Part shown: positions 47,376 to 52,955 of the stretch, in pieces | Position numbering within the stretch: position 1 is the first letter of the stretch | How the letters are laid out: each line of letters begins with the position of its first letter | NCBI GenBank assembly: GCA_027061805.1 | Contig: JAMOWA010000047.1 | Coordinates: 1-64,000, forward strand | Length of the DNA stretch: 64,000 nt | Direction of reading: 5' to 3' | Source: Thermoanaerobaculia bacterium | GTDB lineage: Bacteria > Acidobacteriota > Thermoanaerobaculia > Thermoanaerobaculales > Sulfomarinibacteraceae | Made by a program: the position numbers and the translations under genes | Notes under the pieces: model-generated | Told to the model about the DNA's origin: nothing | The model's input: only the letters and a program-made list of their open reading frames with translations | Databases searched by the model: none

Positions 47376-48695
47376 GTGCATCGGGCCAGTCACCACCTCC
47401 GGCTACGACGGCTCTCCGTGCGGCGTTCCGGCGGTGCGTCCCCGGTGTTCGGGGGGCTGGCTCTCGATCTGGGCAGCGGGTCCGTCACCGGGCTCATCGG
47501 ACGCTCGGGTGGCGGCAAGACGACACTCCTCCAGTCCGTGGCGGGCCTGATTCCCTGGATCCATCCTGCCGAGGTCAGGGGCCGGATGGAGCTGGACGGG
47601 GAGGAGCTGGAAGAGCTGGATCCCGGCCAGAGGGCACACCTCGTGGCCACCGCCCTGGACCGGCCCGCCTCCCAGCTCTTCCTGGCCACACCGCGGCAGG
47701 AGCTCGAGGCCGCCCGCCGCCTGTGGGGCGATGCGCCCTTCGGACGGACCGCGGTGGAGTCCCTGGGAGTGGGACCCCTCCTGGACCGGAGGTGCACGAC
47801 GCTCTCCTCCGGCGAGCGGCAGCGGGTGGTCCTGGCCGTGGTCCTCCACGCGGTGCCCAGGCCGCTCCTGCTGGACGAGCCCACGGCGTTCCTGGACCGG
47901 GAAGGGGTCTGGAGCCTCGAGACCCTGCTGGGCGAGGCGTCACGGACCGGGGGGTCGGCACTGGTGGCGGAACAGTCAGGGTGGCGGCTGGGTTCTGCGG
48001 TCACCCGGTGGACGGCCCTGTCCGCCGGGCGCGCGGAGGAGGCCGGTGCTCCCCGGCCACCGGAGCTGCCGGCCCCCGGCCATGCCCCGGGGGAGCGCGT
48101 GCTCCTCCGGGCGAGGGGCGTCACCGTGGAGCGGGGTGGAGCCACCCTCCTCCGTGACGTGTCCCTGGAGCTCCGGGAGGGCGAGGTGGTGCTCCTCGGC
48201 GGGGCCAACGGCAGCGGGAAGACCTCCCTGGCCCGCGTCCTGGCGGGCCTCGACCACCCCCGGAACGGCACCGTGGAGGTGGCCGGGCCCGTCCTGATGG
48301 TCTTTCCAGACGCCGGCCTCCAGCTCTTCGCGGCCACGGTCGAGGCCGAGGTGGCCTCCACGGGCGCCGGTGTGGCGGAGCGGGCCCGCGTCCTCCGGCG
48401 CCACGGCCTGGAACACATGGCGGCCCGGGCACCGTGGACCCTCTCCCGGGGTGAGCGCCAGAGGTTGCTGCACGCCGTGATGGACCTCCTCCGGCCCCGG
48501 GTGCTCATCCTGGACGAGCCGGCCCAGGGGCTCGACGGGGAGGCCCTCGAGACCCTGGTCCGGCTGATCCACCGCCGGGCCGCCAGGGGGCGGGCCTACC
48601 TCCTGATCTCCCATCGGGAGGAGCTGGCGGCGGCAGCCCACAGGAGACTGGAGCTGGTGGACGGCGGGATCGTGGAGCGGGGTGGCGAGCCATGA
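47376..48695 (+). CDS. fused double ATP-binding subunit of an ECF-type ABC transporter (EcfA-EcfA')
   Basis: two NBDs: GRSGGGKTTL / LSSGERQRVVLA / LLLDEPTAFLD and GANGSGKTSLA / LSRGERQRLLHA / ILDEPAQGLD; GTG at 47373 equally possible. Confidence 0.9.
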   Translation: MHRASHHLRLRRLSVRRSGGASPVFGGLALDLGSGSVTGLIGRSGGGKTTLLQSVAGLIPWIHPAEVRGRMELDGEELEELDPGQRAHLVATALDRPASQLFLATPRQELEAARRLWGDAPFGRTAVESLGVGPLLDRRCTTLSSGERQRVVLAVVLHAVPRPLLLDEPTAFLDREGVWSLETLLGEASRTGGSALVAEQSGWRLGSAVTRWTALSAGRAEEAGAPRPPELPAPGHAPGERVLLRARGVTVERGGATLLRDVSLELREGEVVLLGGANGSGKTSLARVLAGLDHPRNGTVEVAGPVLMVFPDAGLQLFAATVEAEVASTGAGVAERARVLRRHGLEHMAARAPWTLSRGERQRLLHAVMDLLRPRVLILDEPAQGLDGEALETLVRLIHRRAARGRAYLLISHREELAAAAHRRLELVDGGIVERGGEP

Positions 48696-49279
48696 GCGAC
48701 CCGCGGCCCTGGACCTGGGCGGCGGTCTTCGGGGGGCTCTGGGGCGCCCTGGAGATGACCGCGGGCACGGCCCTCAAGCTCGCCCGCATCCCGCTCTCGG
48801 GAGCCCTCATGGCCGCCCTGGCCCTGGTGATCCTGGTGACCCTCCGCCGCCTCCAGCCCACGGCGGGGGTCTGCCTTCTGGCCGGTGCCGCGGCGGTGTT
48901 CCTCAAGGTGCTGGCGCTGGGCGGCGTGTTCCCCGGCCCTCTGGTGGCCATGGGGGTGGAGGCCGTCATGGTGGAGGGTGTCTTCCTCGTGGTGGGGTCC
49001 CGTGCCGTGGCGGCCGCCCTGGCGGGGGCCCTGGTGCTGGTGTGGGGCCTCCTCCAGATGGTGGGGATGGTGTGGCTCGTGGCGGGGCTCAGGGTGCTGG
49101 CCTCCTGGGGCGAGGCGCTCGGGGGGCTGGCGGGGCGCGTGGGCACCGGAGGGATTTCCCCCGGCGTCCTGCTGTCGCTCGTGGCCGGGCTCCACGCGGC
49201 GGCCGGGGCTGCAGCCGGCCTCGGCGCCTGGAGGATGGCGGGGCGGGTGGGCCGGCGGCTCCGGGGGGCATCCCGGTGA
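48692..49279 (+). CDS. putative ECF S-component (substrate-binding membrane subunit)
   Basis: about 6 TM; AAVFGGLWGALEMTAGTALKLARIPLSGALMAALALVILV; ATGA overlap with the ATPase gene; operon context. Confidence 0.7.
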   Translation: MSDPRPWTWAAVFGGLWGALEMTAGTALKLARIPLSGALMAALALVILVTLRRLQPTAGVCLLAGAAAVFLKVLALGGVFPGPLVAMGVEAVMVEGVFLVVGSRAVAAALAGALVLVWGLLQMVGMVWLVAGLRVLASWGEALGGLAGRVGTGGISPGVLLSLVAGLHAAAGAAAGLGAWRMAGRVGRRLRGASR

Positions 49280-50406
49280 AGCGGATCCTGGCCGTTCCGC
49301 TCCTGCTGGCTGCCCTGGCCGCCCTCTTCCTGCCGGGTTCCTGGGGGCCGGGGACGGCCTTCCTCCTGGCACTGGCGGGCGCCGCACTGGCGGATCCCGG
49401 CGTGATCCGTGGAACGCTCCGTGCCGGTCTCGTCCTGGGTGCGGTGTTCGCGGCCGCCCTGACGGCCGGGGTCGCCGCCGCCTGGTCCAGCTGGGGGATG
49501 GGAACGTCGCTGGGTGTGGAGCTCCTGCTCAGGATCCTCACCGTCGCCCTGGTGACGGGTACGGTGGCGCGGAGCGTGGACGGGGAGCGTCTCGCCGCCC
49601 TGGCCGGCCGGGCGGGCCTGGGGCGACTGGGCCAGGTGCTCGGCCTCGCCCTCAACACGCTGCCGCACCTGCTGGACACCCTGGACCAGGTGTGGGGGAG
49701 CCTCCGGCTGCGTTCGGGGGGGAGGCTGCGGGCGCTCGTCCGGGCTCCCCGCCTCGCCGAGGTCGTGCTGGCCCATGCCGGCCGTCTGGCGGACGAGGCG
49801 GCGGGGGCGGCGGCGCTCCGGGGCCTCGCGGTCCGGCGGAGCGCACCCGCCGGCCTCGCCCGCGGGCTCCCGGTGGTGGTGGTGACGGGTCCGGGGGGCG
49901 GGGGCAAGACCACCGCGGTGGAGGAGGCGGTGGAGCTCATCAGGAGGGGGGCCGGCGTCTCCGTTGCGGGCTTCGTCCAGCCGGGGATGTGGGGAAAGGA
50001 TGGCCGGGAGGCGTTCCGGGTGCGTGATCTGGTCACCGGGGACGAGGCGATCCTGGCCCGTCGCGTGGAGCGGGGGAGGGGCGAGCACGGGACCCGGTTC
50101 GTCTTCTCCGGCGAGGGTTTCGCGCTGGCGGCCCGGGCGCTCGCGCGGGTGCAGCCGGGCGCCGTCCTGGTGGCCGACGAGCTGGGCCCCGTGGAGCTCC
50201 GGGGCGGAGGACACATGCCGGCCCTCCGGGAGGCCCTGGGCCGGCCCGGTCTCCGGGGCGCTGTGTTCTCGGTACGGCGGCACCTGGTTCCCGCGCTGCT
50301 GGCGGCCCTGGACGCGGCCGACGCCACCGTGGTGACTGTGGACGGGGCCGCCGCCCCGGCCCGGGAGATCGCCCGGCGGTTCTGTGGTGGTGGGAGCTCC
50401 CTGTAA
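49276..50406 (+). CDS. fusion: EcfT/CbiQ-like T-component plus C-terminal THEP1-type nucleoside-triphosphatase
   Basis: N-term TM/coupling region LLLRILTVALVTGTVARSVDGERLAALAGRAGLGRLGQVLGLALNTLPHLLDTLDQVW; C-term VVVVTGPGGGGKTTAVEEAVELI, VAGFVQPG, AVLVADELGPVELRGGGHMPALREAL. Confidence 0.8.
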   Translation: MKRILAVPLLLAALAALFLPGSWGPGTAFLLALAGAALADPGVIRGTLRAGLVLGAVFAAALTAGVAAAWSSWGMGTSLGVELLLRILTVALVTGTVARSVDGERLAALAGRAGLGRLGQVLGLALNTLPHLLDTLDQVWGSLRLRSGGRLRALVRAPRLAEVVLAHAGRLADEAAGAAALRGLAVRRSAPAGLARGLPVVVVTGPGGGGKTTAVEEAVELIRRGAGVSVAGFVQPGMWGKDGREAFRVRDLVTGDEAILARRVERGRGEHGTRFVFSGEGFALAARALARVQPGAVLVADELGPVELRGGGHMPALREALGRPGLRGAVFSVRRHLVPALLAALDAADATVVTVDGAAAPAREIARRFCGGGSSL

Positions 50407-50561: not shown

Positions 50562-51296
50562 ATGGAAGGGACGTTCCAGCCAGCCAGACGGAGGCTCCCG
50601 CCCATGCCGCCGGCGGTGAAGGTGATGCTTGCGATCAACGTCGTGGTCTTCGTCGTGTGGCTCGCCTCCGGCTCGAGCCCGGCGCTTCGCCGTTTCATGG
50701 TGCTCGACTTCCTCGTCAGCCCGGCTCACCTGGCCCATGGGCGTGTCTGGACCCTCCTGACCTCGGTGTTCTCCCACGCCAGTCTGTGGCATCTCCTGTT
50801 CAACATGGTGGTTCTGGTCAGTTTCGGCCGGATGCTCGAATGGATGATGGGGACGCGGCGGTTCATCCTGTTCTACCTGGGCGCCGGGATCTTCTCATCG
50901 CTCAGCCACTGCCTGACCTCGGCGCTGGTCCTTGGGAAACCGGAGGTCTCGGCGCTGGGTGCCTCCGGGGCGCTCTCGGCCATCCTGATCGTCTTCGCAC
51001 TGAGGTTTCCCCGGGAGAAGATCCTCATCTTCGGGATCATTCCGATCCCCGCCATGGTCGGTGCCCTGGCGTTCGTCGCCCTGGACCTCTGGGGGCTGAC
51101 GGCCCAGGCACACGGAGGAGGACTGCCGATCGGGCACGGAGCCCACCTGGGCGGCACATTGTTCGGGCTCCTCGTGTGGTTCGGTGGAATGAACCGCTTC
51201 CTCGGCTCCAGCCAGCCGGGTGCTCCCCCGGCTTCCTCCGGGCGCACCCAGCCGGTCTGGCACGACCGGTTCCCGCCACCGCCGCTGACGAGGTGA
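50562..51296 (+). CDS. rhomboid-family intramembrane serine protease
   Basis: RVWTLLTSVFSHASLWHLLFNMVVLVSFGRMLE, ALGASGALSAIL catalytic GASG, GHGAHLGGTLFGLLVW catalytic His. Confidence 0.93.
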   Translation: MEGTFQPARRRLPPMPPAVKVMLAINVVVFVVWLASGSSPALRRFMVLDFLVSPAHLAHGRVWTLLTSVFSHASLWHLLFNMVVLVSFGRMLEWMMGTRRFILFYLGAGIFSSLSHCLTSALVLGKPEVSALGASGALSAILIVFALRFPREKILIFGIIPIPAMVGALAFVALDLWGLTAQAHGGGLPIGHGAHLGGTLFGLLVWFGGMNRFLGSSQPGAPPASSGRTQPVWHDRFPPPPLTR

Positions 51297-51303
51297 CGGG
51301 GCC

Positions 51304-52269
51304 ATGGGCCGATCCTTCGACACCGTGGACACGTTCCTGCCGTCTCCGACGGCCTGGCAGGAACGCGGGTTCCGGCGGATCGTCTGGCTCCTGACCACAC
51401 TCGTGGTCGCGCCCACGGCGCTCCTGCTCGTCGTCGGGATCCTCCTCCTCGTACTGTGGCGCTCCCCTGCGAGCCTGACGCTGGGGATCCTCGTCATGGC
51501 GCTCGTGGTCTGTCTGGTCACGGGGTCCGTCATCGCACTGGTCCTTCTCCGCAGGGAGGCGCGTCTTTCCCGCCTCCAGACAGACTTTGTCTCCAAGGTC
51601 AGCCACGAGCTCAAGACACCGCTGACCTCGATCCTGATGTTCTCAGAGATGGTCTCGGATGAGGCGCTTCCCGACCCGGAACGGATCGTCTGCCTCCACG
51701 GTATCCACCGGGAGGCGCTCCGGCTCCGGGACCGGATCGAGCGCCTCCTCGAATGGGGGCGGATGGAGGCCGGACAGCGGGTCTTCCGCGCGGAACGGAT
51801 CGATCCAGCGGCCGTCGTCTCGAAAGCAGTGGAGGAGTTCCGGCGCTCCGCCCGCGGCAGGGAGGTGCCGGTCTCCCTCGAGATCGACGGGCCGTTGCCT
51901 CAGATCGCCGGTGATCCCGCCACACTGGAGGACGCCATGCTCAACCTCCTGGAAAACGCTGCCAAGTACACGGGGGACGAGAAGCGGATCGCGGCGGGTG
52001 CCGTCCCGGACGGCCGGACCGTCCGCCTGTACGTCCGTGACAACGGCAGGGGGGTGCCGCGTCGGGAGCAGAAGCGGATCTTCCAGAAGTTCTACCGGAT
52101 CGACGACCGGCTCGCCCGCGCCGTGGAGGGGACGGGCCTCGGGCTTGCCATCGTCCACCACGTGGCCGCCGGCCACCACGGTCGGGTCGAGGTGGAGAGC
52201 GAACCGGGCGCCGGATCCACGTTCACCCTCGTTCTTCCCGCTCTTTCCTCCGAGGAGGTGGTCCGGTGA
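51304..52269 (+). CDS. sensor histidine kinase
   Basis: FVSKVSHELKTPLTSILMFSEMV, LNLLENAAKYTGDEK, DNGRGVPRREQKRIFQKFYR, GTGLGLAIVHH. Confidence 0.95.
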   Translation: MGRSFDTVDTFLPSPTAWQERGFRRIVWLLTTLVVAPTALLLVVGILLLVLWRSPASLTLGILVMALVVCLVTGSVIALVLLRREARLSRLQTDFVSKVSHELKTPLTSILMFSEMVSDEALPDPERIVCLHGIHREALRLRDRIERLLEWGRMEAGQRVFRAERIDPAAVVSKAVEEFRRSARGREVPVSLEIDGPLPQIAGDPATLEDAMLNLLENAAKYTGDEKRIAAGAVPDGRTVRLYVRDNGRGVPRREQKRIFQKFYRIDDRLARAVEGTGLGLAIVHHVAAGHHGRVEVESEPGAGSTFTLVLPALSSEEVVR

Positions 52270-52955
52270 GTCCGGGTCCCGTGCGAATTCTCGTGGTGGA
52301 GGACGACCCCTCGATCCTCCAGGGACTCGGGCTGGCTCTGGGCAAGGAAGGGTATGAGGTGGGAACGGCGGCGGATGGCCGGGAGGGTATGCGAATGGCG
52401 CTGGACGGCGGGTGGGCTCTGATCGTGCTGGACATCATGCTCCCGGGCCGGAACGGATACGAGATCCTCTCGGCGCTCCGTTCGGCGGGCGATGGCACTC
52501 CGGTGCTCGTCCTGACGGCGCGCTCCGCCGAGCTGGACACGATCCACGGCCTCGATCTCGGCGCGGACGACTGGGTGACGAAGCCGTTCACGTTGGGAGA
52601 GCTGCTCGCACGGATCCGGGCCCTGCTCCGCCGGAGCACCTCCGCCGTGGGCACGGTCCTGGAAACGGGGCCGTTGCGGATCGACACGGCTTCCTGCACT
52701 GTCACCCGGGAGGGTCTTCCCGTCGACCTGACGGCCTCCGAATACCATGTCCTGCTCCTCCTCGTCCGGGCCGCGGGCAGGGTCCTCTCGCGAACCCAGA
52801 TCCTGGAGGCGATCCACGGGCCGGGCCACCACGGGTCGCCCCGGACGGTGGACAACTTCATCGCCCAGCTCCGGACGAAGCTGGAGGAGAACCCCTCCCG
52901 GCCCCGGCTGATCCGTACGGTGCGGGGTTTCGGGTACCGGATCGGCGAGCCCTGA
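52266..52955 (+). CDS. OmpR-family response regulator
   Basis: ILVVEDDPSILQGLGLALGKEGYEV, VLDIMLPGRNGYEIL, KPFTLGELLARIRALLRR, winged helix RTVRGFGYRIGEP. Confidence 0.96.
   Translation: MSPGPVRILVVEDDPSILQGLGLALGKEGYEVGTAADGREGMRMALDGGWALIVLDIMLPGRNGYEILSALRSAGDGTPVLVLTARSAELDTIHGLDLGADDWVTKPFTLGELLARIRALLRRSTSAVGTVLETGPLRIDTASCTVTREGLPVDLTASEYHVLLLLVRAAGRVLSRTQILEAIHGPGHHGSPRTVDNFIAQLRTKLEENPSRPRLIRTVRGFGYRIGEP

Follow-up and report, generated by a model that had tools for sequence, protein, structure and literature searches.

The locus described here raises the question of what an ECF-type transporter may import when one of its membrane subunits is joined, in a single chain, to an NTPase of the THEP1 type. 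It is located in a stretch of 64,000 nucleotides (the window) that comes from the 3.1-Mb draft genome, 96.85% complete, of an uncultured bacterium, probably of the Acidobacteriota. We have analyzed the proteins of the operon, their relatives in other genomes, the genes found beside them and the presence or absence of the genes for molybdenum cofactor synthesis in the genomes that carry them.

The operon and its three proteins

Three genes, all on the + strand, code for a double ABC ATPase (NBD-NBD), a small S-like membrane protein and a T-THEP1 fusion. Each junction is an overlap of 4 bp, at 48692-48695 and 49276-49279, exactly where a first-pass annotation of this DNA had placed them. The features are the following:

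47376..48695, + strand: NBD-NBD double ABC ATPase, 439 aa (the GTG start at 47376 is uncertain)
48692..49279, + strand: S-like membrane protein, putatively substrate-binding, 195 aa, six helices (suggestive fold match)
49276..50406, + strand: T-THEP1 fusion protein, 376 aa (open reading frame, profile matches, homologues)
49276..49845, + strand: T (EcfT-like) membrane/coupling domain, residues 1-190 (CbiQ matches, hhalign)
49699..49722, + strand: first coupling motif SLRLRSGG, residues 142-149 (aligns with AVKLRSGG of a CbiQ)
49810..49824, + strand: second coupling motif AALRG, residues 179-183 (aligns with the corresponding CbiQ stretch)
49873..50370, + strand: THEP1-type NTPase domain, about residues 200-365 (PF03266, profile and fold matches)
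49888..49911, + strand: Walker A GPGGGGKT, residues 205-212 (all 65 sequences have G210 and K211)
50173..50199, + strand: Walker B-type ADELGPVEL, residues 300-308 (D301 invariant and E302 at least 90% conserved in 65 sequences)

Further in-frame start codons exist upstream of 47376. Between the NBD-NBD and T-THEP1 genes no ModB-type permease was found with Pfam and NCBIfam, and the permease parts are S and T. No molybdenum gene adjoins the operon in the window, and the search of plasmid records gave no match. A riboswitch, for which the first-pass annotation had proposed a search in homologous operons, was detected neither in the window nor in nine homologous loci. Downstream on the same strand (50562-52955) are a rhomboid protease, a histidine kinase and a response regulator, which nothing links to the transporter.

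The reading of the first gene as a double ATPase was confirmed. ABC_tran matched two stretches of the protein (E=2e-39), with Walker A at residues 42 and 276, the signatures LSSGE and LSRGE, and DEP motifs, while the best NCBIfam model was cbiO (E=1.5e-46, below the cut-off of the model). The pair of ABC ATPases by which ECF transporters are recognized is present here with both domains in one chain. The S-like protein, on the other hand, matched no Pfam or NCBIfam family at E<=1, the known vitamin and metal S-component families included. Its AlphaFold model (pLDDT 93) has six helices, and the top fold match in the PDB was the ECF S-component 5edl, which we take to be YkoE (probability 0.97, TM 0.56, E 0.89, non-significant). 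The model is suggestive of an ECF S-component, as had been proposed for this protein.

The T domain is probably a relative of EcfT, the evidence being weak directly and good through relatives. In the window protein, residues 9-183 matched CbiQ with E=0.03, and three sister T proteins did so with E=1e-4 to 3e-4, all of them below the cut-off. In L040, a locus of the same phylum in which T is unfused, the CbiQ match was above the cut-off, and the family T profile aligned with this protein by hhalign at E=1.3e-6. Aligned directly by hhalign with seven CbiQ sequences, T did not reach a significant score, though SLRLRSGG and AALRG match the coupling stretches of CbiQ, and the two coupling motifs of an ECF transporter can be recognized in them. 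Both are kept across the window's family. In contrast to EcfT/CbiQ, the T domain is short and is followed by a C-terminal NTPase, and in the single-chain relatives described below the coupling motifs are missing from the alignment (SLRLRSGG is gapped, AALRG is not conserved).

From its sequence, the C-terminal domain is with certainty of the THEP1 type. PF03266 (NTPase_1) matched residues 201-354 with E=2.5e-16 and 60.4 bits against a cut-off of 23.9, the profile matches to 2i3b and 1ye8 had E values of 1.5e-19 and 2e-17, the same two structures were found as fold matches, and NTPase_1 was matched in 65/65 aligned T-THEP1 regions. The domain is conserved and its Walker motifs are intact, and the on-site nucleotide processing that the first-pass annotation had inferred for it is a possible role. 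It resembles THEP1/NTPase_1 (COG1618) in sequence, fold and Walker motifs, but the known members are free-standing soluble proteins whereas this one is joined to a transporter subunit. Among the relatives, 41 of the 65 also match DUF2478, a family without assigned function (best E 3.6e-9); the window protein has no DUF2478 match.

Relatives and their gene neighbourhoods

The fusion proposed by the first-pass annotation, and its worry that a stop or frameshift might separate T from THEP1, could be settled from the reading frame and from homologues. The 376-aa frame is uninterrupted by stops, with coding-like GC by codon position across the domain border. Full-length T-THEP1 proteins were found in 14 of the 20 genomes of the window's family, 43-55% identical to the window protein, so the fusion is not an artefact of assembly. 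The S gene adjoins T-THEP1 in those family loci that were examined, and the family keeps both ABC ATPases and the coupling motifs.

Elsewhere in the phylum the same parts are arranged differently. In L040 THEP1, NBD-NBD, S and T are separate genes, L041 has an S-T fusion with a separate THEP1, and three other loci (L038, L039, L042) code for single chains. Such single-chain S-T-THEP1 proteins, of about 575 aa, are found mainly in Bacteroidales. A scan of the collection recovered 146 single-chain relatives, of which 80 were kept, mostly from Bacteroidales, the remainder including some Neomarinimicrobiota and an Elusimicrobia. No ECF-type ATPase gene adjoins these 80 loci, where a UvrA-like and an ABC-F-like protein were all that inspection by eye revealed, and a recognized EcfT was absent in 47/55 single-chain genomes. 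This branch appears to have lost the ABC ATPases and the EcfT coupling motifs.

The search for conserved neighbours suggested in the first-pass annotation led to molybdenum-related genes outside the window. The neighbour genes of the 80 loci were clustered before naming, and representatives were then checked against Pfam and NCBIfam. DUF364 was the immediate upstream gene, in the same orientation, in 37, and a ModE-type DNA-binding protein (10 loci), a TonB receptor (8), a DMSO-reductase-family oxidoreductase (6), MobA-like (5) and MocA-like (4) proteins and an XDH-type enzyme (4) were also found. In genomes lacking MoaC, two loci (L167, L170) have MobA, S-T and a molybdopterin oxidoreductase in a row, and a third (L171) brings together a TonB receptor, DUF364, S-T-THEP1, MoeA and MogA. 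Within the window's family, a NapA-type gene is upstream of the operon at L060, in a genome with no MoaC/MoeA/MogA match, a TonB receptor is directly upstream at L066 and a MocA-like gene is downstream at L037. Enzymes found beside such loci are of nitrate reductase, thiosulfate reductase, aldehyde oxidoreductase and AOR types. The structure paper on DUF364 proposes that the protein acts on a derivative of a flavin or pterin, and molybdate and tungstate transport genes are noted there among its neighbours (PMC2954201).

More distant S-like proteins were also seen. Three of them (L043:6877-7554, L044:7852-8529 and L047:10658-11335) adjoin an AOR gene (checked by profile in L043), and genes for a ferredoxin-like and a TonB-receptor-like protein are close by; their genomes, two of which are only about 80% complete, gave no MoaC/MoeA/MogA/MobA match. 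Read by eye, the region around 565-3549 of L075 contains in succession an FdhD-like gene, the frame of an S-T fusion and a stretch resembling the C-terminus of MobA, and the S-like protein at L077:1440-2900 has molybdenum-hydroxylase-type genes on one side and DUF364-like and XdhC-like genes on the other. By the same reading, such proteins adjoin FdhD, XdhC, MobA and XDH-type genes.

Molybdoenzymes and cofactor synthesis in the carriers

We have examined whether carriers of the system have the genes for making the cofactor. Molybdoenzymes were counted as matches to MoCoBD_1 or Molydop_binding. Of MoaA, MoaC, MoaD and MoaE, it was MoaC that stood for cofactor synthesis, searched with an HMM in the order around Maribellus luteus and with one query sequence in the window's family. 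All the counts come from draft genomes, and a gene that goes undetected in a draft may still be there.

The window genome has two MoCoBD_1 molybdoenzymes, and a joined query found no match to MoaC, MoeA, MogA or MobA in it, although in sister genomes the same query recovered MoaC and MoeA at E<1e-24. A genome that is 100% complete (G144) gave the same picture, with two MoCoBD_1 enzymes and no match to the four genes. In the window's family as a whole, MoaC/MoeA/MogA were present in 1/14 carriers (G300) against 4/6 non-carriers (G207, G302, G307, G308), with p=0.014 uncorrected for kinship. G299 and G309 had one weak match each (best E 7.6e-6 and 4.1e-6), far below the MoaC and MoeA matches of the sisters. 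The two non-carriers without MoaC are G078 and G297, the first of them free of molybdoenzymes in both searches.

The Bacteroidales-type order around Maribellus luteus provided a larger sample. Among 198 of its genomes that were searched, S-T(-THEP1) was found in 61, MoaC in 91 and a ModB-like permease in 87. The system is not tied to the loss of cofactor synthesis, because 42 of the 61 carriers also have MoaC; overall the two are positively associated (odds ratio 4). Of the 19 carriers lacking MoaC, all have a molybdoenzyme, against 7/45 MoaC-lacking controls without the system (p=8e-11, uncorrected for kinship), and a ModB-like permease was detected in 0/19. That draft gaps removed both MoaC and the ModB-like gene from all 19 is hard to believe. 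As to the seven controls that have molybdoenzymes and no detected system, two also show MoeA/MogA or ModB-like matches, and here the draft may simply fail to cover MoaC.

These counts bear on the idea of a system resembling ModABC in function, through which molybdate, tungstate or a chelated metal would enter the cell to be used in making the cofactor; a TonB receptor would then serve for the chelate. The presence of DUF364, TonB receptors and regulators of the ModE type beside the loci is compatible with it, as are the molybdate and tungstate transport genes in the DUF364 context (PMC2954201) and the overall association with MoaC. We consider it quite unlikely, since the metal alone would be of no use to genomes that bear molybdoenzymes but lack MoaC (as well as MoeA/MogA in the window's family), and since among genomes with MoaC the share that retains a ModB-like permease is about the same in carriers and non-carriers (34/42 vs 38/49). 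The operon resembles the ModABC/Wtp/Tup transporters in probably serving molybdoenzymes and in having ModE-type regulators nearby; it differs from them in architecture and in that the carriers lacking MoaC have no ModB-like permease.

Probable substrate, mechanism and significance

From the gene structure, conservation, neighbours and presence/absence described above we infer a substrate, a direction and a mechanism. Carriers often have molybdenum enzymes but not the genes for cofactor synthesis, which suggests uptake of the cofactor, and on this comparison of genomes the operon is rather likely to be an importer of molybdenum cofactor or molybdopterin. The cofactor-like option of the first-pass annotation is thereby retained, while the nucleobase or nucleoside that it had also considered is not favoured by genome context or by gene presence and absence. 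The lack of detected MoeA and MogA in the window genome would favour an imported form that already carries the metal. G381, G391 and G489, without MoaC, keep MoeA- and MogA-like genes and would also allow metal-free molybdopterin.

Another substrate or precursor, such as a purine, another pterin or a thiamin precursor, could be imported instead, the molybdenum context reflecting shared physiology. The closest known design is the YkoEDC-type ECF transporter of a thiamin precursor, presumably also with a double-NBD gene and separate S and T, and the S model has 5edl as its top fold match; XDH-type genes adjoin some S-like relatives as well. However, the S-like protein has no sequence match to the YkoEDC S family, T is fused to THEP1, and the context is of molybdenum and not of thiamin. 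The associated enzymes differ in substrate, having in common the Mo/W pterin cofactor alone, and the neighbours MobA, MocA, MoeA and MogA act on the cofactor itself, all of which makes this alternative improbable. The proteins might also belong to a different, undescribed pathway that makes the cofactor, or might export it, as the enzymatic or enzyme-like nature of THEP1 and DUF364 and the flavin or pterin derivative proposed for the latter (PMC2954201) might indicate. This is hardly credible, since the system is built around an S/T membrane module and ABC ATPases, the TonB receptors point inward, and such a pathway would need to replace MoaC, MoeA and MogA together.

For import of the cofactor or molybdopterin the following mechanism can be proposed. 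The three proteins would assemble into an ECF-type importer, in which the S-like protein would bind the cofactor, as Mo-MPT or in a dinucleotide form, or else its pterin part, MPT, and the T domain would couple it to the double ABC ATPase. The fused THEP1 NTPase, at the cytoplasmic exit, may receive the cofactor and hand it on, or may add a second nucleotide-driven step. The importer would supply molybdoenzymes in cells that stopped making the cofactor; in the relatives, a TonB receptor would let the compound in through the outer membrane, and the cofactor would be finished by MobA/MocA. In the single-chain branch THEP1 may be the only engine, because no ECF-type ATPase is adjacent, a recognized EcfT is mostly absent and the coupling motifs are missing from the alignment. 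The full version of this proposal, a dedicated bacterial cofactor importer whose Bacteroidales-type branch lost the ABC ATPases and runs on THEP1 alone as a single S-T-THEP1 chain, seems to us somewhat unlikely.

The molybdenum cofactor is generally taught to be made by each cell for itself, being unstable outside proteins. The nematode C. elegans takes it up from its food, according to work cited by PMC9370521. The literature that we searched, mostly as titles and abstracts and with subscription papers outside its scope, contained nothing joining ECF transporters or importers with uptake of this cofactor. The operon is real and conserved and appears to be an ECF variant undescribed in that literature, for which the comparison of genomes speaks well in favour of a role with the molybdenum cofactor. 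If it is an importer of the cofactor, cofactor auxotrophy and cross-feeding would exist in common anaerobes, the molybdoenzymes of genomes without synthesis genes would be accounted for, and DUF364, a group of TonB receptors and the fused THEP1 domains would gain a testable function.
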